NCBI RefSeq assembly: GCF_900176405.1
Contig: NZ_FWXJ01000001.1
Coordinates: 62,001-126,000, forward strand
From: Polynucleobacter kasalickyi
Lineage (GTDB): Bacteria; Pseudomonadota; Gammaproteobacteria; Burkholderiales; Burkholderiaceae
DNA: 64,000 bases
Direction: 5' to 3'
This document shows positions 28,384-58,134 of this stretch, one piece after another (position 1 is the stretch's first letter; the number at the start of each line of letters is the position of its first letter). Below the pieces are notes generated by a model that was not told the origin of the DNA, did not search any database, and saw only the letters and a list, made by a program, of their open reading frames with translations. A program made the translations under genes and the position numbers.

Positions 28384-28414
28384 GCCTATCCATCATTCAC
28401 CATTAAAGAGCCCT

Positions 28415-30741: not shown

Positions 30742-30754
30742 ATCGGAAAATATC

Positions 30755-31576: not shown

Positions 31577-31612
31577 GATGAACTTTACAGCGCAAATATA
31601 TTGCATGGCACT

Positions 31613-33733: not shown

Positions 33734-33788
33734 CATAATATTCTTTAAATCAATTACCACAAATTGCGTAACAAATAGGAGACAAAAA

Positions 33789-34583: not shown

Positions 34584-34597
34584 TTCAAGTAGTAGAA

Positions 34598-34626
34598 AAA
34601 CACTCACATGAGCTATGTGAGTGTTT
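34598..34626. terminator. Intra-run hairpin between aldolase and Bug genes
   Basis: AAACACTCACAT (34598-34609) pairs perfectly with ATGTGAGTGTTT (34615-34626) around a 5-base loop, 15 bp after the aldolase stop and 40 bp before the next start. Three T in the arm and no further T-run make it a weak terminator; an mRNA-stabilising or processing hairpin is possible. Confidence 0.5.
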
Positions 34627-34665
34627 AAGTTGGAAAGCAATTCTAAAAATCATCAAGGAGATCGT

Positions 34666-35685: not shown

Positions 35686-35687
35686 TA

Positions 35688-42392: not shown

Positions 42393-42489
42393 GATGGTTG
42401 TCTCCAATTTAGACCTTGACAAGTCTTTTATATATATTTAAAAATGTAATACAAACTATAAAAGATTTTAATAAAAATGTGGGGACAAA

Positions 42490-43719
42490 ATGATTAAAAA
42501 GCTCAGAACTGAGCGGGATAATCAGCAGTGGATGCTGGATCTCGCCCTTAATATGCGTGGTCGCGTACAAAACTTCGAAAGAGACGACGCAGAAGTACCT
42601 GCTGGTAAACGTGCCAGAAATTACCGGATGTACCCAAAAATTTGGCGCGAAGCCGGTGAGCGGCATGAGCGACTCGCTAAACTTGCCCAAGAACGTGGGG
42701 CCCATTCTTCGGCTACTTACCACTTTGATCATGCGATTGAAGCGTATCGTATGGCACAGCACCCCATTTATTTTGATGATCATCCTGTTAAAACATATTT
42801 GTATGGCAAGTTAACCGAGATGGTTGACCTTCGTACTAAGTCTGCACCTTATCCAATTGAACGTGTTGAGGTTGAGTTTGATGATGGTAAAACGATTTCT
42901 TGCTTACTCCACTTGTTACCAGATCGTCGCCGTGCGCCAGTGGTGATTTATGTGCCAGGCATGGACCAAACCAAAGAAGTATTTCCAAAGGCATACCATA
43001 ACATTGGTATTGAAAGAGGCTTCCATGTGCTTGCAATGGACGGTCCAGGACAAGGTAACTCAAATATTCAAAAAATTCGTGCGGTCGGTGATAACTACGA
43101 ACGTGCTGGTGCTGCGGTCATTTCCTATCTTAAAACGCGCCCTGAAATTGACGGCGATAAGATTGCGATTTACGGGATTAGTATGGGCAGTTACTGGTCA
43201 CTTCGCTTATCGAGTTATGACCACCGAGCTGCAGTAGTGGTTTCTTCGGTCGCTTGTTTTAACCCTAATAATACGATCTTCACGGTATCTTCTCCACGCT
43301 TCAAACAAATGTTCATGTACATGGCAGGCTATGACGATGAAGAGCGCTTTGATGAAGAAGTGGCGAAGGGTATGACAGTGCGTGGCCATTTAGACAAAAT
43401 TAAATGCCCAACCTTGTTAGTAACTGGTGAGTTTGATCCGCTCTGTCCATTAGAGGAAGCTGTGGAAGCCTTTGAAGATTTAAAGGTGCCAAAAGAAATG
43501 TGGGTCTTTGAGAATCAATACCACCCACTATGGAGCATTTCTAACCTAGGTGGCATGGACTGCCATGATTATGTTTTCGACTGGTTGCAAGGCTTCTTTA
43601 ACGGCACGAATCAACCCACTACAGAAGGTAAAGTTGCTTATATTAAAGAACATGGGGATGGTCCATGGTGTGATAACGAATGGGAGCCAACCGTCGGCCG
43701 AGGACAAGCTTATTTTTAA
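42490..43719 (+). CDS. Alpha/beta hydrolase (DHPON-hydrolase/FrsA-like)
   Basis: A 409-residue hydrolase with a helical N-terminal domain (about 1-110) and a C-terminal alpha/beta hydrolase domain. The nucleophile is S231 (YGISMGSYW), the acid is the aspartate in TGEFDPLCP and the histidine is in NQYHPLW. This layout resembles 2,6-dihydroxypseudooxynicotine hydrolase, which cleaves a carbon-carbon bond in nicotine breakdown. Activity on a related aryl-diketone or ester is inferred. It heads a twelve-gene forward run of the island. A similar protein is at 51507. Confidence 0.85.
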   Translation: MIKKLRTERDNQQWMLDLALNMRGRVQNFERDDAEVPAGKRARNYRMYPKIWREAGERHERLAKLAQERGAHSSATYHFDHAIEAYRMAQHPIYFDDHPVKTYLYGKLTEMVDLRTKSAPYPIERVEVEFDDGKTISCLLHLLPDRRRAPVVIYVPGMDQTKEVFPKAYHNIGIERGFHVLAMDGPGQGNSNIQKIRAVGDNYERAGAAVISYLKTRPEIDGDKIAIYGISMGSYWSLRLSSYDHRAAVVVSSVACFNPNNTIFTVSSPRFKQMFMYMAGYDDEERFDEEVAKGMTVRGHLDKIKCPTLLVTGEFDPLCPLEEAVEAFEDLKVPKEMWVFENQYHPLWSISNLGGMDCHDYVFDWLQGFFNGTNQPTTEGKVAYIKEHGDGPWCDNEWEPTVGRGQAYF

Positions 43720-43792
43720 GTAGTAGATGTAAATCGTCAATAGTAGCAAGCACACAAAGTAGTACAGACCAAAAAATAGAGAGGCATGTGTG

Positions 43793-44854
43793 ATGAGCAA
43801 GACATTTGAAGAGTTGATCCAGATTGATCAACAGCGTCGCTCCGCGCTAAATTTCGCAATGAAGTTTGGCGTGGCTTCGGTCGCATCAGGTTTTGGGATC
43901 CAAGACGTATTGAGTCAAACGCAAACTCCGGCTCAGGGTCTGTCTGCGTTACCACCCAATTGGCCAAACAAACCCATTAAGCTGATTGTGCCGTTTCCTC
44001 CTGGAAATACCCTGGATATCGTGGCAAGATTTGTTCAAACCAAGATGTCACAAGAGTTAGGGCAAAGTGTTTATATCGAAAATATCGGTGGCGCCTATGC
44101 GCAGATTGGGATGGCAGCAATTGCTAGAGCTAATCCCGATGGTTATACCTTTGGCGCTTCGCAAGGTGGCCCGATGGTAGTTCAACCCCATACTGTTAAA
44201 AATTTACCCTACGATGTATTACGTGATTTTATTCCTGTAGCCGTTTCAGCATGGAACTATAACGCTCTAGCAGGATCTCTAACCGCACCCTTTAAAACTT
44301 TATCAGAGATGGTGACTTGGGCACGTGCCAACCCTGGCAAGTTAACCGTTGGTACCACGGGTGAAGGTGGCTTTGCACACTTATGGTTTGAGGACTTTAG
44401 AAGGCAAGCAAAATTCGAATATACCCATGTTCCTTATAAGGGGACCGCAAATATTGCCAGCGATTTAGTCTCTGGCACCATCATGGCAGGAGCGGATGGA
44501 ATTTCTGGCTTTGCGGGACTTGCCAAAGGAGAAAAGATCCGAATTGTGGCAATCACCAACTCAACAAAAGTGGAGCAGTGGCCTAACGTGAGTTTGTTGG
44601 GTGACGTCGTACCTGGCTTTGCCGTGAACGGCTGGTTCGGCTTTGTCGCTCCTGCAAAAACGCCCATGCCCATTGTGCATCGATTAAATCAAGCAATTAA
44701 TGCAGCAATGAAATCACCCGAAGTCCAAGAGAAATTACCTAGCTATGGGCTCATTGGTGTCACGGAATCCCCTGAATATTTTGATCAACTCAATCGTAAA
44801 GACTATGAACGATATGGTGCGATTGTAAAAGCAATAGGACTAGAGGCTAAATAA
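43793..44854 (+). CDS. Bug/TctC family substrate-binding protein with Tat-like leader
   Basis: A 353-residue periplasmic protein whose leader is unusual. It starts MSKTFEELIQIDQQRRSALNFAMKFGVAS, a twin-arginine-like N-region before a short hydrophobic stretch. Mature landmarks are WPNKPIKLIVPFPPGNTLDIVARFV, VYIENIGGAYAQIGMAAI, NPDGYTF, VGTTGEGGFAHLWFEDF, YTHVPYKGTAN and APAKTPMPIVHRL. The first loop reads PGNTLD, lacking the second glycine. The ATG at 43793 is favoured over the GTG at 43790. The next gene starts within its stop codon (TAATG). Confidence 0.88.
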   Translation: MSKTFEELIQIDQQRRSALNFAMKFGVASVASGFGIQDVLSQTQTPAQGLSALPPNWPNKPIKLIVPFPPGNTLDIVARFVQTKMSQELGQSVYIENIGGAYAQIGMAAIARANPDGYTFGASQGGPMVVQPHTVKNLPYDVLRDFIPVAVSAWNYNALAGSLTAPFKTLSEMVTWARANPGKLTVGTTGEGGFAHLWFEDFRRQAKFEYTHVPYKGTANIASDLVSGTIMAGADGISGFAGLAKGEKIRIVAITNSTKVEQWPNVSLLGDVVPGFAVNGWFGFVAPAKTPMPIVHRLNQAINAAMKSPEVQEKLPSYGLIGVTESPEYFDQLNRKDYERYGAIVKAIGLEAK

Positions 44855-45861
44855 TGAATCGTATGATCAAAAGAAGTGTATCGACTGTCTTCCTGTTGGC
44901 ATTCAGTCAGCTATTTGTGATGCAAGCTCAAGCGCAAAATGAAAGTAGCGCTGGCGCTTTTCCAAATAGAGTCATTAAGATTATTGTGCCGTTTAATGCG
45001 GGTGGGCCAGCGGATGCGCTTGCTCGACCATTAGCTGAGTCCTTGAGTAAAAAATTAGGTACTGCAGTGATTGTCGAAAATAAACCAGGCGCTAATGCTG
45101 CTATTGCTTCACAGTATGTGGCGAAATCGAATCCAGATGGCTATACCTTACTCTTTGCGAGTGATGCAGGCATGTCCTTGGCACCTGCTACACAGAAGAG
45201 TCTACCGTATGATCCTGCCAAAGATTTTGCTGGCGTCACGATGGTTGCGCAGTTGAGTCAATTATTATTTGTGGGGAGTAGTTTCCCAGCGAAATCGGTG
45301 CAAGAATTACAAGCTATTGCCGCAAAAACACCGAACTCCGTGGTCTATGCTTCGATCGGTATGGGAAGTCAAACGCATGTGGCGATTGAATCATTAAGTC
45401 GCACCTTAAACATCAAAATGACACATGTTCCTTACACAGGGGCACCACCAGCCATTACCGATATCGTCGCTGGGAATGTGCAGGTCATGATGTCCACGGT
45501 AGCGGGTCCCTTGTCTTTTATTAAAGCTGGCAAAATTCGGCCTCTCGCTATTGCTGGCCCAGAAAGAAACAAATCTTTACCGGACGTCCCTACCTTTGCT
45601 GAGGTTGGTTTCCCCAATTATGAGTCGCGTGGTTGGTTTGGAATCGTTGCGCCAGCGAAAACACCACTAGAGGTCACCAATTTATTAGCGAAGCACATCT
45701 GGGAAATTGTCCATTCGGAGGAGTATGTCTCCAAGGTGATTGACTTTAATGGCTTTGAAGTTGCCAAAATTCCCCCTGCTGATTTCAGTACTTTTTTAGT
45801 AAAAGATCGGGTCAAGTGGAAAGGGTTAGTCGCTCAAATGGGTGACGCCATCAATAACTAA
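44854..45861 (+). CDS. Bug/TctC family substrate-binding protein
   Basis: A 335-residue periplasmic protein with a Sec signal (RSVSTVFLLAFSQLFVMQAQAQ). Mature landmarks are FPNRVIKIIVPFNAGGPADALARPL, VIVENKPGANAAIASQYV, NPDGYTL, YASIGMGSQTHVAIESL, MTHVPYTGAPPA and APAKTPLEVTNLL. The loop NAGGPAD is canonical in glycines and aspartate. It overlaps the previous Bug gene by 1 bp (TAATG), a rare tandem coupling of two binding proteins. A CocE-like gene follows 43 bp later. Confidence 0.92.
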   Translation: MNRMIKRSVSTVFLLAFSQLFVMQAQAQNESSAGAFPNRVIKIIVPFNAGGPADALARPLAESLSKKLGTAVIVENKPGANAAIASQYVAKSNPDGYTLLFASDAGMSLAPATQKSLPYDPAKDFAGVTMVAQLSQLLFVGSSFPAKSVQELQAIAAKTPNSVVYASIGMGSQTHVAIESLSRTLNIKMTHVPYTGAPPAITDIVAGNVQVMMSTVAGPLSFIKAGKIRPLAIAGPERNKSLPDVPTFAEVGFPNYESRGWFGIVAPAKTPLEVTNLLAKHIWEIVHSEEYVSKVIDFNGFEVAKIPPADFSTFLVKDRVKWKGLVAQMGDAINN

Positions 45862-45904
45862 TTGCAAGAAAACAAATAACTATTACTGACAAGAAAGAAG
45901 ACTT

Positions 45905-47647
45905 ATGAATTTGATGAAAAGTGAGATACGTGACGGGATGCAGATTGACTGGGACGCACCGATTTTAATGAAAGACGGCACCGTGTTGAGAGCTGATGTC
46001 TTTAGACCGATTGGTGATGGCAAGCATCCAGTCATCATTACTTACGGTCCTTATGCGAAGGGACTTGACTTCAGAACTGGTTATAAAAGTCAGTGGTCCA
46101 GGTTAGAAGAAGCGGTACCTGAAATCTTGACAGACACTTCGAATAATTACCAAAACTGGGAACTAGTCGATCCTGAGGTCTGGGTACCTGATGGCTATGC
46201 TTGTGTCCGCGTTGATTCCAGGGGTGCTGGTAGATCTCCTGGCGTGATTGATTGCTGGTCGCCACTCGAAACTGAAGATTTTCATGAATGTATTGAATGG
46301 GCTGGTACGCAGAACTGGTCCAATGGTAAGGTCGGCGTAAACGGTATTTCTTACTATGCGATGAACCAGTGGACCGTGGCAGCCACTAAACCAAAACACT
46401 TGGCCGCATTATGTATTTGGGAAGGATCCTCAGATTTCTACCGTGAACTATGTCGCCATGGCGGTATTTTGAGCGACTTCTTGGGCGATTGGTTCCCAAG
46501 GCAAGTGGTGAGTGTGCAACATGGCGTTGGTGATCGTGGCGCCAGAAATATTATTACGGGTGATACAGTCTGCGGACCAGAAACACTCACTGATGCAGAA
46601 CTAGCCGCAAATCGCGCTGATCCTGATATGCAAGCGCTACATCATGAATGGATGGATGAGTTTTATGTGAACCGCTCCCCCGACTTTTCTAAAATTGATG
46701 TGCCATTATTGTCTGCCGCCAACTGGGGTGGTCAAGGTTTACATACGCGTGGAAACTTTGAAGGATATTTAGCAGCAGGCAGTTCGCAAAAATGGTTAGA
46801 AGTTCATGGTGATACGCATTTCACGCATTTTTACAGTCGTTATGGGGCTGGTTTACAAAGACAGTTTTTTGCACACTTTTTAAAAGGTGAAAACTCTGGT
46901 TGGGAAAATCAACCGAAGGTATCCCTTAATATTCGCTCACCCGGTGAAAAATTTGAGTTACGTGCAGAAAATGAATGGCCACTCGCTCGCACGCAATGGA
47001 CGCCCTATTATCTCGACCCGGCCTCGATGGAAATCAATCCAGTCAGCCAAACCGCAACCACCACCCTGACCTACGATACACAGAGTGATGGCATTACCTT
47101 TTTAACGCCAGTACTTGATCAAGATGTCGAAATTACGGGTCCAGTTGCTGCCAAGGTTTGGCTATCAGCACAGACGAATGATGCAGATATTTTCTTAGCC
47201 TTACGTCTGTATGATCCAAGTGGGGTTGAAGTAGCATTTATTGGTTCGAATGACCCACGTACACCAATCGGTTTGGGCTGGTTAAGAGCTTCACATCGCA
47301 AAACTGACCCAAATAAATCAAAGCCCTATCGTCCTTGGCATACCCATGATGAAGATTGGCCACTGACACCAAACCAACCGGTTGAATTAGATGTGGAAAT
47401 TTGGCCAACTTGTATCGTGATTCCTGCTGGCTATCGACTTGGTTTAAATGTACGTGGTAAAGATTATGAATATGACGGTACAGATGCTGGTGTTGCCCAT
47501 GCGCCTTACCCGATGAAAGGGGTTGGTCCTTTCTTACATCGCAACCCTAAAGATCGTCCTGCTGATGTGTTTGGTGGGAAAAATACCCTACATTTCTCTA
47601 ATGAAATGAAACCCTACTTACTTTTACCTGTTATTCCAAAGAAATAA
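45905..47647 (+). CDS. CocE/NonD family hydrolase
   Basis: A 580-residue serine hydrolase of the CocE/NonD (Xaa-Pro dipeptidyl-peptidase, S15) family. The N-terminal alpha/beta hydrolase domain has nucleophile S149 (VGVNGISYYAMNQW). The C-terminal jelly-roll domain begins near 380 (VEITGPVAAKVWLSAQTNDADIFLALRLYDPSG). CocE relatives cleave esters such as cocaine, or acyl-proline peptides. The acid and histidine are probably in the AANWGGQG and HGDTHFTHF regions. A paralogue follows after 7 bp. No signal peptide is seen, so it likely acts in the cytoplasm. Confidence 0.88.
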   Translation: MNLMKSEIRDGMQIDWDAPILMKDGTVLRADVFRPIGDGKHPVIITYGPYAKGLDFRTGYKSQWSRLEEAVPEILTDTSNNYQNWELVDPEVWVPDGYACVRVDSRGAGRSPGVIDCWSPLETEDFHECIEWAGTQNWSNGKVGVNGISYYAMNQWTVAATKPKHLAALCIWEGSSDFYRELCRHGGILSDFLGDWFPRQVVSVQHGVGDRGARNIITGDTVCGPETLTDAELAANRADPDMQALHHEWMDEFYVNRSPDFSKIDVPLLSAANWGGQGLHTRGNFEGYLAAGSSQKWLEVHGDTHFTHFYSRYGAGLQRQFFAHFLKGENSGWENQPKVSLNIRSPGEKFELRAENEWPLARTQWTPYYLDPASMEINPVSQTATTTLTYDTQSDGITFLTPVLDQDVEITGPVAAKVWLSAQTNDADIFLALRLYDPSGVEVAFIGSNDPRTPIGLGWLRASHRKTDPNKSKPYRPWHTHDEDWPLTPNQPVELDVEIWPTCIVIPAGYRLGLNVRGKDYEYDGTDAGVAHAPYPMKGVGPFLHRNPKDRPADVFGGKNTLHFSNEMKPYLLLPVIPKK

Positions 47648-47654
47648 GAACCCT

Positions 47655-49340
47655 ATGAACTCAAGTACAGCATACGAAATCCAAGAGCACCCCCATTTTT
47701 TATTAGAAAAAAATGTGGATGTGACGATGCGCGATGGCGCTTTGTTAAAAGCAGATGTTTTTCGCCCAAAAGGGGATGGTAAATATCCAGCCATTCTAAA
47801 TTTAGGCCCTTATCAAAAAGATAAATTGTGGGTGACTCCGCCTACTCTAGAAGAGAAGGGGAATGAATTTATGAATTGGGAAACAGTGAATCCTGAAATT
47901 TGGATTCCTGAAGGCTATGTGAGTGTCCGCGTCGATGGCCGTGGCTCCGGAAAATCACAGGGTCAATGTGATCCTTGGTCAATGGCTGAATCAATTGACT
48001 ATTATGATGCGATTGAATGGGCTGCCCAGCAACCTTGGTGTAATGGGAATGTGGGCTTATTAGGGATCTCCTATTATGCGATTAATCAGTGGTTTGTTGC
48101 CAACCAACAACCACCGTCACTCAAAGCGATTATCCCTTGGGAAGGCTTTGCAGATATTTATCGCGACGGACTCTATCACGGCGGTATTTTGAGCGTGTTT
48201 ATGACCAATTGGTTTACAGCGCATTTATTACATCATCAACTCGGACGGGCATCGCAAACGGTGGCCAACCCTTGGGAACGGAATGTGCTTGGGAATTGGT
48301 TAGGTAATAACTTAGATACTGGTGCCCTGAGTGGCGCTCAAGCGGATTGGGAAAAAATTAAAGTGCCATTTTATTCGGTAGGTAACTGGACTGGTATGGG
48401 TCTGCATCTACGTGGCAATACCGAAGCATATATGCTCAGTCCTAACAAAAATAAAAAACTAAGAATGCAAAATGGCTCGCACGTCCATCCGTTTTATACC
48501 GCTGATGGTCGTGCCGATCAAATGCGCTTTCTAGATTATTGGCTCAAAGGGATTGACAATGGTGTGATGGACGAACCACCAGTGAAGTTAGCGATTCGTC
48601 ATGGTGGCGACAAGATTGTCTGGCGGAATGAAAATGAATGGCCAATTGCTAGAACCCAGTGGACCAAATGGTACCTTGATGTACAAAATGTGAATCCAAC
48701 AGCGGTCCCGCTCAAAGGGGCGATTGCCTCAAGTAACCCTAGCGTTGAGGCGCAGTGTTCTTATGCCGCGACCGGCATGGGCTCCATGGGATCAACATCG
48801 GCCGCGTCTTCCCAAGTCATGGGTGGCGGCATCAAGCCAGATATGGGGGTTTCATTTGTGACCGCACCGATGACTGAAGAGGTAGAAATTACAGGTCCAC
48901 TTAGCGCTACCTTATGGGTATCGAGCTCATCGGAAGATATGGATCTCTTTTTGACCATTCGTCATTTCGATGAAAATGGTCAAGAGCTTTTAGAGACAGG
49001 TCAGCAAGGATCTCCCGTACCTGTTGCCAAGGGTTGGTTGAGAGTTTCGCATCGCGAGCTGGATACTGAAAAATCATTGCCTTATCGTCCCTACCATCGC
49101 CATCAACGACGCTTACGTTTAACACCTGGTGAAATTGTCCAAGTGCAAGTAGAAATTTGGCCAACTTCGATGGTCTTTGCCAAGGGACATCAATTACGTT
49201 TAGATGTGCAGCCAAGGGACGGTATTGGTAGTAGTGGTTATTTGCACTACCATGCGGATTACAACACGGGTACGAACACAATTCATACCGGTGGTCAGTA
49301 TGAGTCGTTCTTGTTCTTACCAATTATTCCGAAAGTTTAA
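47655..49340 (+). CDS. CocE/NonD family hydrolase (paralogue)
   Basis: A 561-residue homologue of the preceding gene. The nucleophile is S139 (VGLLGISYYAINQW), and the two proteins share the segments DVFRPxGDGKxPxIxxxGPY and GGILSxFxxxWFxxx. An insertion of glycine-, serine- and methionine-rich residues (about 365-395, TGMGSMGSTSAASSQVMGGG) precedes the C-terminal jelly roll (VEITGPLSATLWVSSSSEDMD). It probably arose from its neighbour by duplication. A Bug gene starts 39 bp later. Ester or amide hydrolysis of a related substrate is inferred. Confidence 0.88.
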   Translation: MNSSTAYEIQEHPHFLLEKNVDVTMRDGALLKADVFRPKGDGKYPAILNLGPYQKDKLWVTPPTLEEKGNEFMNWETVNPEIWIPEGYVSVRVDGRGSGKSQGQCDPWSMAESIDYYDAIEWAAQQPWCNGNVGLLGISYYAINQWFVANQQPPSLKAIIPWEGFADIYRDGLYHGGILSVFMTNWFTAHLLHHQLGRASQTVANPWERNVLGNWLGNNLDTGALSGAQADWEKIKVPFYSVGNWTGMGLHLRGNTEAYMLSPNKNKKLRMQNGSHVHPFYTADGRADQMRFLDYWLKGIDNGVMDEPPVKLAIRHGGDKIVWRNENEWPIARTQWTKWYLDVQNVNPTAVPLKGAIASSNPSVEAQCSYAATGMGSMGSTSAASSQVMGGGIKPDMGVSFVTAPMTEEVEITGPLSATLWVSSSSEDMDLFLTIRHFDENGQELLETGQQGSPVPVAKGWLRVSHRELDTEKSLPYRPYHRHQRRLRLTPGEIVQVQVEIWPTSMVFAKGHQLRLDVQPRDGIGSSGYLHYHADYNTGTNTIHTGGQYESFLFLPIIPKV

Positions 49341-49379
49341 TAACGCAGTTTTTTCATGATCGAAGAAAGTGAGTAAAAC

Positions 49380-50360
49380 ATGAAGCAATTATTGATGTTG
49401 GTGATGTACCTTTGGGTTCCATTCTCATTTGCGCAAGATGCTATTACGAACTTTCCGAGTAAACCTGTCCGCCTAGTAGTAACCACGGCGGCAGGTGGTG
49501 GATCGGATGCGATTGCCCGCCCTTTGGAGCAGAAATTCTCTGAGTTTTTGGGCCAACCAGTCATTATTGATAACCGACCAGGTGCATCAGGCATGATTGC
49601 CATGGACCATGTGGCGAAATCTGCACCCGATGGATATACGATTGTTTTTGCCACCACCGGTACGATTGCGACGAACTACGCACTCAACCCAAAAATTCCC
49701 TACGATCCTCTGAAAGATTTTGCACCAATCACTCGAGTTGCAGATACCTATTTAGCTTTTTTAATTAATCCTAAATTAGGGGTTAATACCTTAGAAGAGT
49801 TTGTGGCTTTAGCAAAAAGTAGAGAAAAAATTAACAAACCACTCACTTTTGCTAGTTATGGCGTCGGTAGTTTTGCCCAATTGGTTACAGAATGGTTTAG
49901 TACCATTGCTAATATTAAGATGATTCATGTTCCCTACAAAGGGAGTGCACCAGCGATGACTGACTTGATTGGTGGTCAAGTAGATTGTTTCATTGATACG
50001 CTTCCTTCCTCGATGCCATTTATTAAGAGCAAGCAAGTCAAGGCGATTGCCGTTGGCTTAGAGAAGCGTGGAGAAGGTGTACTGGCAGAAATTCCAACCT
50101 TTACTGAAGCTGGATACCCAGAATTTAAACCGGTTGCTTGGTGGAGTTTATTAGCACCTGCCGCAACGCCAAAACCGATCGTGGCAAAGTTGCAGCAAGC
50201 AGCCGCAAAAGCATTGCAATCCCAAGAGGTCAAGGATCGCTTTGCCCTTGCACTCGCTACGCCAATTGGCAATAGCTCCGAAGATTTTGGCAAATTCATG
50301 AAAAGTGAAGTCGATACGTATGTCAAAGTCGTGAAGCAAGCGAACATTAAGTTGGACTAG
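49380..50360 (+). CDS. Bug/TctC family substrate-binding protein
   Basis: A 326-residue periplasmic protein with a very short leader (MKQLLMLVMYLWVPFSFAQ). Mature landmarks are FPSKPVRLVVTTAAGGGSDAIARPL, VIIDNRPGASGMIAMDHV, APDGYTI, FASYGVGSFAQLVTEWF, MIHVPYKGSAPA and APAATPKPIVAKL. The usual VPF is VTT, which changes the strand leading into the ligand loop. A further Bug gene begins 23 bp after it, so this is a second tandem pair. Confidence 0.92.
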   Translation: MKQLLMLVMYLWVPFSFAQDAITNFPSKPVRLVVTTAAGGGSDAIARPLEQKFSEFLGQPVIIDNRPGASGMIAMDHVAKSAPDGYTIVFATTGTIATNYALNPKIPYDPLKDFAPITRVADTYLAFLINPKLGVNTLEEFVALAKSREKINKPLTFASYGVGSFAQLVTEWFSTIANIKMIHVPYKGSAPAMTDLIGGQVDCFIDTLPSSMPFIKSKQVKAIAVGLEKRGEGVLAEIPTFTEAGYPEFKPVAWWSLLAPAATPKPIVAKLQQAAAKALQSQEVKDRFALALATPIGNSSEDFGKFMKSEVDTYVKVVKQANIKLD

Positions 50361-50383
50361 ACCGTCTTTAGAAAAATACCTTG

Positions 50384-51481
50384 ATGAACCTGCCTTTATT
50401 ATGCCAACCAAAGACGCTTTCAAAGTGGCTGAATCATCAGCATCACTATGCTCGTTTGACGAATTATCTAGGTTTAGTGATGGCGCTTGGCATCATGGGG
50501 ATTTGGCATACGGCTCTCGCGCAGTCCAATAACCTCAATCCTGCTAGTAGTGTTTCCTCAACTAGCACCACCAGTCAAACTTCGAATTATCCCAATCGAC
50601 CTGTCAAAATTATTGTACCGTTTACAGCTGGTGGGCCCACTGATGTGCAAGCTAGGTGGGCTGCAGAACAACTCAGTAATGCACTAGGTCAAGCCTTTAT
50701 TGTCGAAAACCTCGCGGGAGCAGGTGGGGTTACTGGAACCGATAAAGTCGCTAAGAGTCCAGCTGACGGATATACCTTGCTCGCTGGTAATCCAGGACCA
50801 TTGACCGTCGCGCCTGGCATTAAACAACAAATGCCTTATCAAACCTTAACGGACTTTGTACCTATTATGTTGATTGCTAGAACTGCTAGTTGTTTGACAG
50901 TTCATCCTTCAGTCCCTGCCAAGAACGTAAAAGAGTTTATTGCCTACGCTAAAGCAAATCCTGGCAAAGTCAATTATGGCTCGCCTGGTGTTGGGACGAT
51001 TGGTCATTTGGGGATGGAACGCTTTAACTATCAAGCGGGTATTAGTATGAACCATATCCCTTATAAAGGCACTTCACAATACCTGAATGATTTAATTGCC
51101 GGTCATATCCAAATTGCGATTACGCAATTGGCCGGTTGCATGACGTATGTAAAGCAAGGTAAGTTAGTTGCGATTGGTGCTACTGCCGAGAAACGTTCTA
51201 CTTTAATGCCTGATTTACCTTTAGTCGCTGAGCAAGGCCTACCAAATTATGCCAGCTACAACTGGAACGGTATCCTAGCCCCCAAGGGGACACCAACGGC
51301 AATCACACAAAAAATCTATGAAGTTTTATCCCAAAAGATGGCACTCAAAGAAAACCAAGAGTTATTTACAAGTCAGGGGCATGAGCCCGGGAATTTAACA
51401 CCAGATGGTTTTAGAAATTTCTTACAACAAGATTTAAATAGAAATACGGAACTCGCAAAAGTTGCCAATATTCACGAATGA
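50384..51481 (+). CDS. Bug/TctC family substrate-binding protein with long leader
   Basis: A 365-residue periplasmic protein. The N-terminus is unusually long: about 30 polar residues (LCQPKTLSKWLNHQHHYARL) precede a hydrophobic stretch (GLVMALGIMGIWHTALAQ), then a serine- and threonine-rich linker. Mature landmarks are YPNRPVKIIVPFTAGGPTDVQARWA, FIVENLAGAGGVTGTDKV, PADGYTL, YGSPGVGTIGHLGMERF, MNHIPYKGTSQ and APKGTPTAITQKI. The ATG at 50384 is preferred to a TTG just before it. No good ribosome site is visible, so a start inside the leader is possible. Confidence 0.88.
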   Translation: MNLPLLCQPKTLSKWLNHQHHYARLTNYLGLVMALGIMGIWHTALAQSNNLNPASSVSSTSTTSQTSNYPNRPVKIIVPFTAGGPTDVQARWAAEQLSNALGQAFIVENLAGAGGVTGTDKVAKSPADGYTLLAGNPGPLTVAPGIKQQMPYQTLTDFVPIMLIARTASCLTVHPSVPAKNVKEFIAYAKANPGKVNYGSPGVGTIGHLGMERFNYQAGISMNHIPYKGTSQYLNDLIAGHIQIAITQLAGCMTYVKQGKLVAIGATAEKRSTLMPDLPLVAEQGLPNYASYNWNGILAPKGTPTAITQKIYEVLSQKMALKENQELFTSQGHEPGNLTPDGFRNFLQQDLNRNTELAKVANIHE

Positions 51482-51506
51482 ACCATTTATTTTTTAGGAA
51501 CTGAAC

Positions 51507-52679
51507 ATGTCAGAAAAAAAAGATCCCCCATATTTTATGTATTTTCCTGGCAATTACCGCTGGTCTGCCGCCTTTATTAATATGCTCAGCGCAGCACCAT
51601 ATGGTGGCTCTGAAATCGGTGAGTTACATAAAATTGGTACCAAATTAAAAGGGAAATCTGCCGATGATGATGAAGCTTGGTTTACTGCGGTAACTGAAGT
51701 GGCGGATGGTGTACGTGCCTATGCTGAACAATTTGCCAGTAAAAATTATCAGGTTTCAGCCGCTCATGCTTATCAGCGCGCAGCTAATTATTATCATATG
51801 GCGGAGCGTTTTAGAACGCCTAAGGACGCACGTGCTTTAGATGTGTTTCAACGTGGTATTGATTGTTTTAGAGAGTTTATCAAACACACAGATTACCAAA
51901 TTGAAATCGTTGAAGTTCCTTATGAAGATGGTAGTTTGCCCGGCTATTTTGTTCATGCCCAAAATAGTAAGCGTGAGAAAAATCCTTGTATTGTCTATTT
52001 TGATGGCTTAGATGTCACCAAGGAAATACAGTTTATGCGTGGGGTGCCTGATTTAGTCAAGCGTGGATTCTCGGTACTGATTATGGACGGTCCTGGCACG
52101 GGTGAAGCCATTCGTTTAAGACAAAAATATTTACGTTATGACTATGAGGTAGCGGGTAGTGCTTGCATTGATTATTTAGAAACTAGAGCCGATGTGAATG
52201 TCGACAAAATTGGGATTGTGGCGATTAGTCTGGGTGGTTATTATGCCCCTCGCTGTGCGGCGAAAGATACACGTTACAAAGCTTGTATCGCCTGGGGAGC
52301 GCAGTGGGACTACTATCAAACCTGGAAAGGACGTATTGAAGCGCAGTTTAAAACCTCTTTATCGGTGCCAGGTCATCACATTAATTGGATTTTAGGCGTT
52401 GACACCTTAGAGCAATCTTTAGAAGTCCTAAAGCCATTTACTTTAGATGGTGTCATGCAAGAAATGACTTGTCCATTTTTACTAGTGCATGGTGCGGAGG
52501 ATGAACAAATTCCACTAGCGGATGCGCAAAAACAATTTGACGCTTGTGGCTCGAAAGATAAAACCTTCCGAGTGTATACAGCGGAAGAAGGCGGGTCGCA
52601 ACATTGCCAAAGAGATTACTTAACCCTCGTGGTGGCTGATATGTGGAACTGGTTTGAAGAAAAACTCATGAGAAATTAA
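51507..52679 (+). CDS. Alpha/beta hydrolase (DHPON-hydrolase-like)
   Basis: A 390-residue hydrolase with a helical N-terminal domain (about 1-125) and a C-terminal alpha/beta hydrolase domain. The nucleophile is S241 (VAISLGGYYAPR), the acid probably D in HGAEDEQIP and the histidine in GGSQHCQRD. It is a distant paralogue of the protein at 42490. The match to dihydroxypseudooxynicotine hydrolase-like enzymes suggests cleavage of an aryl ketone, ester or amide. It sits between two Bug genes. Confidence 0.83.
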   Translation: MSEKKDPPYFMYFPGNYRWSAAFINMLSAAPYGGSEIGELHKIGTKLKGKSADDDEAWFTAVTEVADGVRAYAEQFASKNYQVSAAHAYQRAANYYHMAERFRTPKDARALDVFQRGIDCFREFIKHTDYQIEIVEVPYEDGSLPGYFVHAQNSKREKNPCIVYFDGLDVTKEIQFMRGVPDLVKRGFSVLIMDGPGTGEAIRLRQKYLRYDYEVAGSACIDYLETRADVNVDKIGIVAISLGGYYAPRCAAKDTRYKACIAWGAQWDYYQTWKGRIEAQFKTSLSVPGHHINWILGVDTLEQSLEVLKPFTLDGVMQEMTCPFLLVHGAEDEQIPLADAQKQFDACGSKDKTFRVYTAEEGGSQHCQRDYLTLVVADMWNWFEEKLMRN

Positions 52680-52748
52680 AGCGCTCTTTGCATTGAACCA
52701 AGGCACCCAAGAGATAACCTTAGAAATATAATAATTGGAGACATAAAA

Positions 52749-53759
52749 ATGATGGTGAATCACACTTTTTCAAGATCGAAGTTACTCATAGCCATGTTAC
52801 TCATGGCAGGACACGCGGCATATGCGCAGTCTAATGCGACGCCTAATGCCCAAGCTATTAAAGATTTTCCGAATCGAACGATTAAAGTAGTAGTACCTTA
52901 TGTTGCTGGCGGGCCCATGGATTTTATTGGGCGATACTTGGATCAGAAATTACAGCCTGCTCTAGGCCAAACGATGATTGTTGACAACCGCCCAGGAGCT
53001 GGCGGGGCGATTGGTACAGATATTGTTGCCAAATCACCAGCGGATGGCTATACCATTTTGAACACTTCCTCGAGTCATGCGAGTTTACCGGTTGTGAGTA
53101 AATCGCTACCTTATGACCCAGTGAAAGATTTGCAACCTATCACGCAAATTGCTAATAGTGTTGGCTTCATTATTGCGGTTCGTAATGACCTACCAGCGAA
53201 AAATTTACAAGAATTTATTGCTGATGCGAAAGCAAATCCTAATAAATATAACTTTGGCTCAGGTGGCGTGGGCAATGTCATGCAGTTTGCCGGTGAGTAT
53301 TTCAATACGAGTGCAGGCATTAAAACGCAACATATTCCATTTAAGGGCGTCGGCCAAGCGATTACAGAACTTATGGCAGGCCGGATTGACTTTGTATTAG
53401 GCCCCGGTACCGGTCTTTCCACGTATATTAAAGCCGGAAAAATTAAAGCATTAGCCATCACTGCTAAAAAGCGCTGGTCAGAACTCCCTGATGTACCGAC
53501 TGCCGATGAAGCTGGACTAAAAGATTTTGCCTATATTCCATTTTACGGCTATTGGTACCCAGCGGGTGTGCCAAAAGAAATCGTTAACAAAATGCGGCTA
53601 GAAATTGTCAAAGTATTAGAACAGCCTGAAACTAAAAAAGCGTTTTTTGACCAAGGTTTTGAGGTGGTTGGTTCTACCCCAGAAGAGTTCTCAAAAGTCA
53701 TTGCCAATGAAATTGAACTCAATAAGCGTTTAGCAACAAATATCAAATTTACTGAATAA
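52749..53759 (+). CDS. Bug/TctC family substrate-binding protein
   Basis: A 336-residue periplasmic protein with a Sec signal (SKLLIAMLLMAGHAAYAQ). Mature landmarks are FPNRTIKVVVPYVAGGPMDFIGRYL, MIVDNRPGAGGAIGTDIV, PADGYTI, FGSGGVGNVMQFAGEYF, TQHIPFKGVGQA and YPAGVPKEIVNKM. The loop VAGGPMD is canonical. GGAG (52737-52740) is 8 bases before the ATG at 52749. The CoA-transferase gene begins 16 bp later, so Bug, CoA-transferase and lyase form a plausible import-to-CoA unit. Confidence 0.92.
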   Translation: MMVNHTFSRSKLLIAMLLMAGHAAYAQSNATPNAQAIKDFPNRTIKVVVPYVAGGPMDFIGRYLDQKLQPALGQTMIVDNRPGAGGAIGTDIVAKSPADGYTILNTSSSHASLPVVSKSLPYDPVKDLQPITQIANSVGFIIAVRNDLPAKNLQEFIADAKANPNKYNFGSGGVGNVMQFAGEYFNTSAGIKTQHIPFKGVGQAITELMAGRIDFVLGPGTGLSTYIKAGKIKALAITAKKRWSELPDVPTADEAGLKDFAYIPFYGYWYPAGVPKEIVNKMRLEIVKVLEQPETKKAFFDQGFEVVGSTPEEFSKVIANEIELNKRLATNIKFTE

Positions 53760-53775
53760 TTTATAAAGAAAAAAT

Positions 53776-54984
53776 ATGTCATTACCTTTAGAAGGAATTA
53801 AAGTTATCGAACTCGGCAATTTTATTGCTGGACCCTTTTGCGGGATGTTACTCGGCGATATGGGTGCTGAGGTGATAAAAGTTGAAAGACCAAAAAATGG
53901 CGATCAAACCCGCGCCATGCCACCGATGGTCAATGGCCATAGCGCAAGTTTTGCAGCGCTGAACCGTAATAAAAAAAGTTTGGTTTTAGATTTAAAGCAA
54001 GCAGAAGCGATTGAAATCTTAAAAAAACTCGTCAAAGAATCCGATGTTTTTTTAGAAAACAATCGTCCTGGCGTTTTAGAAAAATTAGGCCTAGGTGCGG
54101 CGGACTTAAAAGCAATTAATCCAAACATTGTGTATGTATCAGCTTCTGGTTTTGGTCAAACAGGACCCCATCGCAAGCGTGCGGGCGTGAATTTAATTGT
54201 CGAAGCATTTTCTGGCACCTTATCCGTCACTGGCGCGCCAGGGGAGATGCCGATGCGTCCCGGGATTCAGACAGCGGATATTTTTGGTGCTCTGTTTGCT
54301 ACCTACGCAGCCTTAAGTGGTTTGATTAGTGTCTTAAAAGGGCGCGGCGGTAAAGTTGCCGATGTCTCTTTAGTTGAGGCTTCGATTGCAGCGGCTGCTT
54401 GGGAAACGGCTTATTACCTCGCCACGAATGATGTTCCTGAGCGAATGGGAAATCAACATCGTTTAAATACACCCTATCAGTTATTTGAGACGGTTGATCA
54501 GGAATACTTGGCAATCGGCACGCCGAATGATGAGTTATTTAGACGCTTTATGGTGGCCCTTGAATTAAGTGAACACCTCACGGATCAACGTTTTTCTAGT
54601 TATGTGCTACGTAAGGAAAATGAAGCGCACCTATTAGCCATTGTTGAACCGGCAGTGTCTAGAAGGGCATCGGATGAATTAGAAGCGCTCTTAATGCAAG
54701 CGGGAGTACCATGTGCTCGCATGAATAATATTAAGGAAGTATTTGAAGACCCACATATTATTGATCGCAAGGTGGCCGTAGATATTGAGCATCCGGTGAT
54801 GGGCAAAATGAAAGCAGTTCGTAATCCTGTTTTATTTGAGGAAGGTAGTCCAACGATCAGACTGCACGCACCTAGTCTGGGTGAGCATTCAGCAGAAATA
54901 TTACAAGAACTCGGCTATACCGCAGACCAAATCCAAACCTATGCGCAGCAGGGTGTCGTGTTATTGCATCAGCCGCAGCATTAA
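53776..54984 (+). CDS. CaiB/BaiF (class III) CoA-transferase
   Basis: A 402-residue family III CoA-transferase. Features are LGNFIAGPFCGMLLGDMGAEVIKVERP, FAALNRNKKSLVLDLK, the catalytic aspartate D168 (GIQTADIFGAL) and GVPCARMNNIKEVFEDPHI. It activates a dicarboxylate or hydroxy acid to the CoA ester by exchange, giving the kind of substrate the neighbouring CitE-like lyase cleaves. The lyase gene begins 36 bp downstream. Relatives include formyl-, succinyl- and itaconate-CoA transferases. Intact, normal length. Confidence 0.92.
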   Translation: MSLPLEGIKVIELGNFIAGPFCGMLLGDMGAEVIKVERPKNGDQTRAMPPMVNGHSASFAALNRNKKSLVLDLKQAEAIEILKKLVKESDVFLENNRPGVLEKLGLGAADLKAINPNIVYVSASGFGQTGPHRKRAGVNLIVEAFSGTLSVTGAPGEMPMRPGIQTADIFGALFATYAALSGLISVLKGRGGKVADVSLVEASIAAAAWETAYYLATNDVPERMGNQHRLNTPYQLFETVDQEYLAIGTPNDELFRRFMVALELSEHLTDQRFSSYVLRKENEAHLLAIVEPAVSRRASDELEALLMQAGVPCARMNNIKEVFEDPHIIDRKVAVDIEHPVMGKMKAVRNPVLFEEGSPTIRLHAPSLGEHSAEILQELGYTADQIQTYAQQGVVLLHQPQH

Positions 54985-55020
54985 TTTTATTGAAAACCCA
55001 TTATTAAAGAAAGATTCTCT

Positions 55021-55932
55021 ATGAAAATTTGGCGCAGCCTCCTCTTTGTTCCAGCAAACCAAGAACGTATGTTGAATAAATTAGATTCATTACCAGCAGA
55101 TGGTTTTATTTTTGATTTAGAAGATACGATTCCTGATCCCGAAAAAAACAATGCCAGACAAATGACTCTAGATGTCATGCCAAAGGTAAAAGGTGACCGC
55201 AGTTGGGTCAGGGTCAATGGTTTATCTACAGGATTTATGCATGAGGATTTAGATGCCCTCATCGGCGCGCCGGGTCTGACGGGCTTAATTGTGCCTAAAA
55301 TGGATTCCTTAGCGGATGTAAATACGGTGGATAAGCTGATGGCAAGTCTTGAGATTCGTCGTGGACTTACTGTCGGATCAACTCCCATAATTGTGATGAT
55401 GGAAAGTGCTGGTGGGGTCCTTGACTCAAGAGCCATTATGACCAGTAGCCCTCGGATTCAGACCATGATTTATGGTGGTGGAGAAGATGGTGATATGAAT
55501 GTCTCACTTGGTGCTACTTGGACGAGTCCCGGCCCAGAAATGATGTTTGTGCGGCAATTTTCTTTAGTGTCTGCTAGAGCGGCAAATTTTGATTGTCCAC
55601 TTGACGGCGTGTTTGCCAATGTGAAAGACCCAGAGGGTTTTAGGAGCGATACACAATTATCGAAGCGTTTAGGCTATCGCGGTCGTACTGTGATTCATCC
55701 GAATCAAATTGAGGATGCTAATAATATTTATACCCCAACCGCTGCGCAAATCGAATATTACTCTAGAGTGGTAAACGCTTATCAAGAAGCCTTAACGCGT
55801 GGCGTTGCTAGTACCACTGTTGACGGTAAGTTAGTTGATTTAGCGATGTCTAAAACTGCACAACGTTTACTGGATCATGTGGCGGCGATCAAAAATATTG
55901 AGGCGATTACTGGCTTTGTGGGAAAAGCGTAA
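55021..55932 (+). CDS. HpcH/HpaI/CitE family lyase (CoA ester lyase)
   Basis: A 303-residue TIM-barrel lyase. The start WRSLLFVPANQERMLNKL, the metal-binding FIFDLEDTIPDPEKNNAR, WVRVNG and LTGLIVPKMDS are typical of CitE/malyl-CoA lyase-like enzymes, and VIHPNQIE closes the barrel. It likely splits a 3-hydroxy-dicarboxyl-CoA such as malyl-, methylmalyl- or citramalyl-CoA into acetyl- or propionyl-CoA and a keto acid. The segment GGGEDGDMNVSLG is somewhat unusual next to the common G-x-E-D-L. The next gene overlaps its stop. Confidence 0.88.
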   Translation: MKIWRSLLFVPANQERMLNKLDSLPADGFIFDLEDTIPDPEKNNARQMTLDVMPKVKGDRSWVRVNGLSTGFMHEDLDALIGAPGLTGLIVPKMDSLADVNTVDKLMASLEIRRGLTVGSTPIIVMMESAGGVLDSRAIMTSSPRIQTMIYGGGEDGDMNVSLGATWTSPGPEMMFVRQFSLVSARAANFDCPLDGVFANVKDPEGFRSDTQLSKRLGYRGRTVIHPNQIEDANNIYTPTAAQIEYYSRVVNAYQEALTRGVASTTVDGKLVDLAMSKTAQRLLDHVAAIKNIEAITGFVGKA

Positions 55933-56873
55933 TGGTCAATGCAGCTATTTTTGGTTTAGGTCGTTGGGGTAGAAATCTCGTCAATGCGGTTGAGCATAGT
56001 GATGTTGTCCGCTTTCAAAAGGCAGTCGTCACGAATCCTCAAAAACATCTAGATTTTGCACAGGAAAAGCAGTTAGTAGTAACTGCTGACCCAAACGAAG
56101 TCTTGCTCGATCCATCGATCCAGATGATTGTCTTAGCGACACCCCACCTGTTGCACTTGCCACAAATTACTGCAGCAGCAAAAGCCGGTAAAGCAGTTTT
56201 TTGTGAAAAGCCGCTGGCTTTGAATTTAGAGGAAGCCCAGCGTGCAGTAGCTGTTTGCCAAGAGCATCAGGTCTTATTGGGGGTCGGACATGACAAACGT
56301 TTTTGGCCCTCGATGCAGCATGTCCAGCAGGTTGTCAGATCAGGTGAACTTGGTAAGTTGATTCATATTGAGGGAAACTTTACCAATGAGAATCTAAAAA
56401 ATTTCCAAACTTCTTGGCGTGATCTTCCGGAGAATGTCCCAGGTGGGAACTTAACGGCGACTGGGATTCATATTGTTGATGCCTTTACCAACCTCATGGG
56501 CCCTATCAAATCCGTAGAAGGTATTTATCGTCAAATGGATGGTGGCACGATGGATACTTTAGCCTTGCTGGTGGATTTTGCATCTGGCGCAACCGGACTG
56601 TTATCTTCACCTAGACCATCACCGGTATTTTGGCGAGTACATGTATTCGGTCAACATGGCAATATCGAGTCCAGAGGTCCATTGCAAAGCATTCAGAGCA
56701 TGTCAGGTAAAGAGGCAGTTGTGAAAGAGTTTGCGCCAATAAATGCGTTGCAATTTCAGCTAGAGGCGTTTGCTCGGGCAATTGAAGAGAAAACGGATTA
56801 CCTGATTTCGCCGCAGGAGATTTTAAATACGGTGGCTGCTTTTGAAGCAAGTACCAAAGCGGTTGATTCATAA
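55932..56873 (+). CDS. Gfo/Idh/MocA family oxidoreductase
   Basis: A 313-residue NAD(P)-dependent oxidoreductase. The Rossmann segment is AAIFGLGRWGRNLVNAVEH (4-22), the EKP motif is VFCEKPLALNLEEAQRAV (about 91-108), and the C-terminal domain holds GGNLTATGIHIVDAFTNLMG. Substrates in this family are mainly sugars and cyclitols, but aromatic and aliphatic ones occur. It overlaps the lyase stop (TAATG), so it is translationally coupled, and it ends the twelve-gene run. A hairpin-rich gap and a GlcG-like gene follow. Confidence 0.87.
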   Translation: MVNAAIFGLGRWGRNLVNAVEHSDVVRFQKAVVTNPQKHLDFAQEKQLVVTADPNEVLLDPSIQMIVLATPHLLHLPQITAAAKAGKAVFCEKPLALNLEEAQRAVAVCQEHQVLLGVGHDKRFWPSMQHVQQVVRSGELGKLIHIEGNFTNENLKNFQTSWRDLPENVPGGNLTATGIHIVDAFTNLMGPIKSVEGIYRQMDGGTMDTLALLVDFASGATGLLSSPRPSPVFWRVHVFGQHGNIESRGPLQSIQSMSGKEAVVKEFAPINALQFQLEAFARAIEEKTDYLISPQEILNTVAAFEASTKAVDS

Positions 56874-56977
56874 AACTGTATTCAATTGCTTTGAAAACAG
56901 CTTCTCAGGGTTTACTCCTCTTGTAGGCTGACACCTAGGAGCTTAGGATGAAAGAAATAACCATAATGGAGATCAAT

Positions 56978-57478
56978 ATGAAAAAAGTTTCAAAATTACT
57001 TACTCAAGCCACCGTTTCATTGGCGGCTTTAATGGTCGTTTCAAGTTCGCAGGCTCAGCTTCTGAACCATAAAGATATGACTGCTTCCATTGCCATGACA
57101 ATGGCTCAGACAGCAATCGCCACTTGTAAAAATAATGGTTATGTAATATCAGTCAGTGTCGTTGGCAGGAATGGAGAAATCATTGTTCAAGTGCGTGGCG
57201 ATGATACTGGAATGCATACAGTTGAAAACAGTTTTAGAAAAGCTTATACAGCGCGGACCTTTCGTGTACCTTCCGGCGACATTGTGACTCGCTTAAAAAA
57301 TGACCCAAGCTTTCCCCTAATACATCTTAGTAATGTGATTGCTAATCAAGGTGGTTTACCCATTAAGTTTGGTGATGAAACAATTGGTGGGATAGGGATC
57401 TCTGGCGCACCTGGCGGTGATAAAGATGAAGCTTGTGCAAAAGCTGCATTAGATAAAGTCGCTGATCAACTTAAATAA
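56978..57478 (+). CDS. GlcG/HbpS family heme-binding-like protein, exported
   Basis: A 166-residue protein with a Sec signal (KKVSKLLTQATVSLAALMVVSSSQAQ). The mature part matches the GlcG/HbpS family: ASIAMTMAQTAIATCKNNGYVISVSVVGRNGEIIVQVRGDD, SFRKAYTARTF and GGLPIKFGDETIGGIGISGAPGGDKDEACAKAALDKV. Streptomyces HbpS is a heme-binding accessory sensor protein; other members are linked to glycolate or propanediol use. The start at 56978 has GGAG at 56968-56971; an ATG at 56948 is less likely. It is set apart from the upstream run by about 100 bp. Confidence 0.85.
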   Translation: MKKVSKLLTQATVSLAALMVVSSSQAQLLNHKDMTASIAMTMAQTAIATCKNNGYVISVSVVGRNGEIIVQVRGDDTGMHTVENSFRKAYTARTFRVPSGDIVTRLKNDPSFPLIHLSNVIANQGGLPIKFGDETIGGIGISGAPGGDKDEACAKAALDKVADQLK

Positions 57479-57700: not shown

Positions 57701-58132
57701 ATGGCCAAACTTCGACATATCACGATTACCGTTGAGGATCCAGAAGCTGCTGCGGAGTTCTACATTAATACCTTTGATATGAAAAGAGTTGGTGGCACCG
57801 ATTGGGAAAATGCAAAAGGCGTTTATTTGAGTGATGGCACGATGAATTTGGCCTTACTGAAGTATAAAAACGACGCCTCAGCAGGTGATCGGGGTGCGAA
57901 CTTTGTTGGGCTACATCATTTGGGGTTCTGGGTCGATGATGTTGGTCAAACCAGGAAATCACTAGAAAAAAATGGCGCCACCTATTGGATGGGCGATGTG
58001 AGACATGATGGCGGATTTTATGAAGTGAAATACTTTGACCCTCATGGTGTCGTCGTAGATATTAGTGAACATGGCTGGAAGGGCGCTACCAAAGAAGTCA
58101 TCCCAACGCCATCAACTGAGTCAATGAAGTGA
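57701..58132 (+). CDS. VOC family protein (glyoxalase/extradiol dioxygenase fold)
   Basis: A 143-residue metal-binding protein of the vicinal oxygen chelate superfamily. It begins AKLRHITITVEDPEAAAEFYINTFDMKRV, with the histidine of the first paired-beta motif, then continues through GLHHLGFWVDDVGQTRKSLEKNG. It ends in YEVKYFDPHGVVVDISEH with the final glutamate. Members are isomerases, dioxygenases and antibiotic-binding proteins, so the reaction is not fixed. AGGAG (57688-57692) supports the ATG. The Bug gene starts at 58135, right after its stop. Confidence 0.87.
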   Translation: MAKLRHITITVEDPEAAAEFYINTFDMKRVGGTDWENAKGVYLSDGTMNLALLKYKNDASAGDRGANFVGLHHLGFWVDDVGQTRKSLEKNGATYWMGDVRHDGGFYEVKYFDPHGVVVDISEHGWKGATKEVIPTPSTESMK

Positions 58133-58134
58133 TC

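Follow-up and report, generated by a model that had tools for sequence, protein, structure and literature searches.

Three separately conserved catabolic modules probably fused into a twelve-gene run around paired hydrolases in Polynucleobacter kasalickyi

Several described systems come close to parts of the locus considered here, a run of twelve genes in a 64,000-nucleotide stretch of Polynucleobacter kasalickyi DNA (RefSeq assembly GCF_900176405.1, contig NZ_FWXJ01000001.1, positions 62,001 to 126,000; G000:C25:62001-126000 in our collection, in which G, C and L numbers denote genomes, contigs and loci), which we call the window. The nicotine pyridine pathway of Paenarthrobacter employs 2,6-dihydroxypseudooxynicotine (DHPON) hydrolase, and the nic cluster is described as also including 2,6-dihydroxypyridine 3-hydroxylase, a ketone dehydrogenase and others (PMC10494377). 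Polyketide shortening by hydrolysis is the activity given for Ayg1p (PMC12139152). The itaconate pathway is stated to require a coenzyme A (CoA)-transferase, a hydratase and a lyase, and the same paper describes, in Cupriavidus necator, a second citramalyl-CoA lyase homologue that lies beside a CoA-transferase, without a hydratase, and is there not linked to itaconate (PMC12290011). For mesaconate use by Burkholderia xenovorans, mesaconase, a succinyl-CoA:citramalate CoA-transferase and a citramalyl-CoA lyase are listed as needed (PMC4682846).

The twelve genes lie at 42490-56873 of the window, all on the + strand, and are labelled in order DH1, B1, B2, C1, C2, B3, B4, DH2, B5, CT, CL and GF. 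Sequence comparison makes it likely that the run arose by a fusion, specific to this lineage, of three catabolic modules that are otherwise conserved separately, and suggests that these modules are co-selected and plausibly act on related compounds. Module A has the composition DH1-Bug-CocE; its members in the window are the DHPON-hydrolase-like alpha/beta hydrolase DH1 (42490..43719) and the TctC/Bug solute-binding protein B1 that accompanies it (43790..44854). Another TctC/Bug protein, B2 (44854..45861), then precedes the CocE/NonD (S15) hydrolase C1 (45905..47647), a second CocE/NonD hydrolase, C2 (47655..49340), which clusters with the module A CocE gene of G155, and the TctC/Bug protein B3 (49380..50360). 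Module B is a Bug-DH2 pair, often with CocE, formed here by the TctC/Bug protein B4 (50381..51481) and the second DHPON-hydrolase-like protein, DH2 (51507..52679). Module C comprises the TctC/Bug protein B5 (52749..53759), the class III (CaiB-type) CoA-transferase CT (53776..54984), the CitE-like HpcH/HpaI acyl-CoA lyase CL (55021..55932) and the Gfo/Idh/MocA oxidoreductase GF (55932..56873), whose start shares one base with the stop of CL. This layout agrees with an earlier note on the same DNA, which had described twelve same-strand genes with short or overlapping junctions: all 12 open reading frames (ORFs) are found, separated in order by 70, -1, 43, 7, 39, 20, 25, 69, 16, 36 and -1 bases. 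Pfam and NCBIfam also return the families that it had named, namely two alpha/beta hydrolases, two CocE/NonD hydrolases, five TctC/Bug proteins and one each of the class III CoA-transferase, HpcH/HpaI and Gfo/Idh/MocA families.

Close to home the run holds together. Polynucleobacter rarus MT-CBb6A5 (G092; L056/L106), the nearest species-named record in the collection, with a DH1 98% identical to that of the window, has the complete set of twelve in unchanged order, at 87-98% identity, and beyond them an HbpS-like gene and a sixth Bug gene, B6. In G025 (L023) 10 of the 12 keep the same order at 64-92% identity, B1 and B3 being absent; G188 has all twelve spread over three contigs (L055, L189, L193), and G003, G102 and G176 have pieces in matching order on short contigs. 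The DH1 match at G102:C62:76-1303 is split between two frames, one piece covering residues 1-104 and the other 100-409, owing to a frameshift or to faulty assembly.

Further out, each module is found by itself. Module A stands alone as DH1-B1-C2 in G155 (L185) and as DH1-B1 in L194, L195, L197 and L198. In L060, L062-L064, L066 and L067 the pair B4-DH2 is accompanied by CocE and Bug genes, and module B reaches another family as Bug-CocE-B4-DH2 in G386 (L073). Module C is present as B5-CT-CL-GF in G015 (L186) and, again in another family, in G280 (L191), with 65, 77, 65 and 51% identity for the four proteins; partial forms are B5-CT-CL in L187 and L188 and CT-CL in G314 (L192). Modules A and B lie side by side in G189 (L112), whose CocE copies fall outside the C2 group of the window in a quick tree that carries long-branch warnings and was used solely for grouping C2 copies. 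G015 holds all seven enzyme genes on four contigs, as DH1, C1-C2-B3, B4-DH2 and B5-CT-CL-GF. Since the three modules can be found separately in other genomes, the run of twelve amounts to a local assembly of parts, not one unit. The earlier note had pointed to gene-neighbourhood comparison of the CocE pair and the DHPON-like hydrolases, and to genes that do not travel together as the finding that would speak against it. Their neighbourhood is indeed conserved near home but breaks into modules further out, so that the run as a whole does not travel together, whereas its parts do.

The genes are also linked beyond adjacency. Co-occurrence was counted in samples of 186 genomes of the genus and 300 of the order, ignoring kinship (no species tree correction), with a CoA-transferase of the same window (38376-39593) as control. 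Within the genus, DH1 and DH2 are each present in 15 genomes and together in 12 (odds ratio 224, Fisher p 7.9e-14), while CT, present in 11, is accompanied by DH1 in 10 (odds ratio 340, p 3e-12) and by DH2 in eight (odds ratio 64, p 3.1e-8). A C1-type CocE is found in 15/15 DH1 genomes and in 26/186 overall. These associations of DH1, DH2 and CT exceed those of the control, which is present in 34/186 and occurs with DH1 in 10 (odds ratio 12.2, p 1.9e-5), with DH2 in 11 (17.7) and with CT in seven (9.6). When the seven genomes bearing all or much of the run are excluded, DH1 and DH2, then in nine genomes each, share six (odds ratio 111), DH1 is present in 4/4 CT genomes, and the overlap of DH1 with the control is 4 of 28 (odds ratio 4.9). 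In the order sample all 14 genomes with DH1 also have DH2 (17 in total), on different contigs in 12/14. Rows dropped from the genus counts were DH2 in G175, G176 and G196 (paralogues, ≤41%) and 128 genomes with CT paralogues only (≤41% among the rows listed), and from the order counts DH1 in G236 (39%) and DH2 in G236, G283 and G326 (≤40%). Partial genes were scored as present for DH1 in G080 and G102, CT in G102, the control in G022 and DH2 in G287 and G323.

Relatives of DH1 were collected from 164 loci in GTDB genomes, of which 80 were kept, and neighbourhoods were counted in 68 (L117-L184) that are not independent of one another and whose placement outside the genus follows their rank in the search, not taxonomy. 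DH1 is highly conserved, with ∼70% identity even in records that bear the titles Alphaproteobacteria, Nitrospinota, Tectomicrobia and Rokubacteria. At distances of up to 3 kb from DH1 (352 kb in all) there are seven CocE ORFs, in 6/68 loci, compared with none at 4-10 kb (491 kb), and over the same lengths CaiB-type genes number 11 and five; 7 of the 11 CaiB cases are directly upstream of DH1, in records titled Nitrospinota (Nitrospinae), Tectomicrobia or 'bacterium'. CocE and CaiB are thus over-represented close to DH1, and Bug genes are hardly enriched (34 within 3 kb, 38 at 4-10 kb). Apart from such local patterns the context of DH1 outside the genus varies, and no stable one was found. A CaiB-crotonase-glyoxalase trio was seen near DH1 in two alphaproteobacterial loci (L177, L183) and near DH2 in three order-level loci (L072, L094, L096). 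Some titles may be wrong: L108, titled Thermoflexus hugenholtzii JAD2, may be the same as G025:C48 of the window's own genus, and several DH1-bearing metagenome-assembled genomes are titled Bordetella parapertussis (L127, L128, L130, L135, L137).

The description of DH1 and DH2 as DHPON-hydrolase-like holds by sequence for both proteins and by fold for DH1. DH1 (409 residues) matches DHPON hydrolase (2jbw) at E 2.6e-15, and DH2 (390 residues) matches it at E 1.2e-19, its top match being the peptidase SMU_737 (3.9e-21). A predicted model of DH1 (mean predicted local distance difference test score, pLDDT, 75.3; predicted template modelling score 0.80) superimposes on 2jbw with a Z-score of 34.0 and a root-mean-square deviation of 3.0 over 343 residues at 21% identity, the first of 1000 chains, followed by FrsA (Z 30.3), AntI (29.4) and Ayg1 (28.5). 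Ser231, Asp316 and His345 are invariant across 32 DH1 sequences, and Ser241, Asp332 and His366 are conserved across 23 DH2 rows; these are the candidate triads, with catalytic roles assigned from the pattern. The nicotine pathway itself was ruled out, as no further nic-type gene is present among the twelve.

Both CocE proteins exceed the TIGR00976 cut-off of 66.3 bits (242.0 and 303.9 bits) and their genes are adjacent, with a 7-base gap, so that the tandem pair of CocE/NonD hydrolases proposed in the earlier note is borne out. The model of C1 (pLDDT 84.7) is closest to SACOL2612 (3ib3/3iii), with a Z-score of 43.3 and 33% identity; the value for cocaine esterase, 31.0, is well under this. Our literature searches found no function for SACOL2612, and gave no result for CocE with Polynucleobacter. 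Ser149, the candidate nucleophile of C1, and His305 are invariant in 18 rows, and the stretch with the catalytic Asp of cocaine esterase lies outside the profile alignment; this Asp may be replaced in the C1 subfamily. With identities of only 37% between C1 and C2 and 33% between DH1 and DH2 (222 residues), a recent tandem duplication of the paired hydrolases is ruled out and both appear to be pairs of old paralogues.

Five Bug proteins among twelve genes are weak evidence for a system, because TctC matches number 148 in the host genome (2.91 Mb, 99.94% complete), or ∼51 per Mb, 14 of them starting within the window. Published work connects tripartite tricarboxylate transporter genes and Polynucleobacter in the Amazon River with terrestrial organic matter (PMC7597016).

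CT and CL raise the possibility that a variant itaconate, citramalate or mesaconate route, with the hydrolases attached to it, accounts for the run. The nearest solved relative of CT is succinate-hydroxymethylglutarate CoA-transferase (259 bits) and those of CL are malyl-CoA/beta-methylmalyl-CoA lyases (malyl-CoA lyase, 126 bits), as such a route would lead one to expect, and both the mesaconate enzymes listed for B. xenovorans and the hydratase-free C. necator pair lend it some precedent. Curated models tell against it: CL scores 145.6 bits with the RipC/Ccl ((S)-citramalyl-CoA lyase) model, which has a cut-off of 375, and 179.8 bits with that of citE (443.4), while CT scores 304.8 bits with succinate-glutarate CoA-transferase NF052585 (750) and 205.5 bits with succinyl-CoA:mesaconate CoA-transferase (700). 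Moreover, the twelve proteins include no hydratase-family match (itaconyl-CoA hydratase) and no fumarase. We regard such a variant as unlikely. The itaconate pathway as described is rejected on the two features tested, the RipC equivalog score and a hydratase in the cluster.

The earlier note had envisaged instead one dedicated linear pathway, in which all twelve genes act in series on one substrate. The short or overlapping junctions, the gene order shared with P. rarus and, over 10 genes, with G025, the presence of all seven enzyme genes, unlinked, in G015, and the strong co-occurrence of DH1, DH2 and CT all suit this idea. We nevertheless think it unlikely: CL is absent at E≤1e-80 from 12 of the 14 genomes of the order that have both DH1 and DH2, G280 carries module C yet is not listed among the DH1 or DH2 genomes, and two hydrolases of each kind in series seem redundant. 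At the other extreme, the run could be a loose storage place, where unrelated catabolic genes without a common substrate have gathered in a Bug-rich accessory region. The abundance of Bug genes in the genome, its five CocE relatives of C1 in addition to the C1-C2 pair, the co-occurrence of the control with DH1 and DH2 and the variable context of DH1 outside the genus would all be expected of it, but not the order kept in G025 at such divergence, the excess of DH1-DH2 and DH1-CT co-occurrence over the control, or the CocE genes near DH1 in six loci taken as outside the genus; we consider it the least probable of the three. A fusion of three modules, the reading that we prefer, has to accommodate several observations that weigh against it. 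In 51 of the 68 loci no CocE or CaiB gene lies in the 3 kb around DH1, and with the run-bearing genomes excluded DH2 is present in only 2/4 CT genomes (odds ratio 24, p 0.013). At E≤1e-80 CL is found in 3/300 genomes of the order, counting that of the window itself, as against 14 for DH1, which can therefore do without module C. CT and CL score far under the curated equivalog cut-offs tested and reach none of them, and TctA and TctB were not found among the proteins of the run, where only TctC-type proteins occur, the remainder of the genome not having been searched for them. Finally, in these counts, which are uncorrected for phylogeny, the control is itself associated with the run genes, so that part of the co-occurrence reflects a common lifestyle. 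We conclude that a functional link among the run genes is partly supported. What stands of the undescribed single system proposed in the earlier note is that the genes are linked and that no named pathway with this gene set surfaced in the literature as far as it was covered; its singleness does not stand, as the twelve genes are not one unit and the modules occur apart.

On the fusion reading, the sequences suggest an order of hydrolysis, CoA transfer and cleavage. Bug proteins would bind organic acids or esters in the periplasm, with import by membrane parts encoded outside the run. The CocE enzymes may cut an ester or amide, and DH1 and DH2 may hydrolyse a C-C bond beside a carbonyl (a retro-Claisen type of reaction) or an ester. 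CT would then move CoA from a donor such as succinyl-CoA on to the released acid, CL would split the activated acid to acetyl-CoA and an oxo acid, and GF would balance a hydroxyl/carbonyl step. As a guess from habitat, plant- or humus-derived matter of dystrophic lakes is the probable substrate.

The 3′ boundary at 56873 is not clear-cut. An HbpS-like gene (56948..57478, + strand) lies 74 bases 3′ of GF and a sixth Bug protein, B6 (58129..59100, + strand), is encoded 650 bases beyond it; both are in the same place in P. rarus and G188, and the HbpS-like gene was not found in the G025 contig. At the other end, a weak sigma-70-like site (TTGACA-18-AAAAAT, 10/12 matching) is seen 5′ of DH1 at 42416..42445 (+ strand). 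Scans of promoters (26 sites against 32.8 in shuffles) and terminators (17 against 17.3) gave no excess. The GC content of the run, 0.43-0.45, is at the upper end of the window range (0.38-0.45) and is uninformative on a horizontal island. Elsewhere in the window are two AbiE-type toxin-antitoxin-like pairs, at 21795-23458 (AbiEi_3 at 21795, then a 308-residue ORF outside the family scan) and at 36755-38306 (DUF6088 and AbiEii, a few genes 5′ of the run), and a catabolic-looking stretch at 27385-36584 with Bug, MmgE/PrpD, succinyl-CoA-ligase-like synthetase, class II aldolase-type, Bug and amidohydrolase genes (the ORFs at 29755 and 30755 were unscanned).

Plasmids carry more distant analogues. 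Searches gave two distant records for DH1, no match at 1e-60 for CL, and 54 records for DH2 and 17 for C2, the latter two sets being all below 60% identity and their overlaps not counted. Neighbourhoods were inspected for five of the 71 DH2/C2 records. On Aminobacter sp. MSH1 pUSP2 (L203, NZ_CP028970.1) genes for a TRAP transporter, CocE, a UroD family protein, citryl-CoA lyase, CaiB and a LigB-type ring-cleavage dioxygenase form one run; the plasmid is typed conjugative, and two insertion-sequence transposases lie downstream of the CocE run. A Bug pair flanks a DH2 relative, with a fumarylacetoacetate hydrolase, on a Variovorax plasmid, and Bug-CocE occurs with fumarylacetoacetase-type genes on others of Variovorax. 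Together these four plasmids, as analogues, would favour hydrolysis of ring-cleavage or diketone-like compounds. A Shinella plasmid lends no support to the pattern: its CocE gene lies amid genes for transposases and conjugation, and just a gene of the 3-keto-5-aminohexanoate-cleavage type is close by.

The finding overturns nothing known. Bug-rich bacteria have up to hundreds of binding proteins, with ligands mostly unassigned, beside many hydrolases without a substrate, and recurring modules, together with a cultured relative in P. rarus, offer a tractable entry to gene roles in dissolved organic matter. A bolder proposal is that the run represents a new breakdown route. In it, an aromatic or polyketide-like compound would be trimmed by two DHPON-type C-C hydrolases and two SACOL2612-type CocE enzymes, and a dedicated pair of the CT/CL type would finish the released dicarboxylic acid; freshwater and soil Betaproteobacteria would have the route as exchangeable modules, and a plasmid would carry an analogue with a non-homologous lyase. 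This we consider doubtful.

Compared with known systems, the enzyme types in the run are all familiar, and it is their combination that carries no name in the literature found. DH1 and DH2 are sequence relatives of DHPON hydrolase and have the Ser/Asp/His pattern in common with it, at low identity in the case of DH1 (21%). The polyketide-shortening hydrolases AntI and Ayg1 belong to the same fold family as DH1 (Z 28-29) but have a biosynthetic setting and 17-19% identity. In the itaconate degradation cluster (Ict-Ich-Ccl), as in module C, a CoA-transferase adjoins a CitE-like lyase; the run differs in being without itaconyl-CoA hydratase and in its attached Bug and Gfo/Idh/MocA genes. The CoA-transferase and citramalyl-CoA lyase homologue of C. 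necator, as that source describes them, resemble module C. A complete tripartite tricarboxylate transporter has TctA and TctB membrane genes beside TctC, whereas the run holds TctC-type proteins only, and the Bug density of the host equals that of Rhodoplanes sp. Z2-YC6860, given in the published text as an extreme (434 in 8.2 Mb, ∼53 per Mb; PMC5994714). pUSP2 differs in its LigB-type dioxygenase, in having no DHPON-type hydrolase annotated within the 20 kb viewed, in a citrate-synthase-like lyase with no similarity to CL, and in a CaiB protein only 32% identical to CT; its grouping of a TRAP transporter, CocE, a class III CoA-transferase and a CoA lyase is nonetheless comparable to the run in the window.

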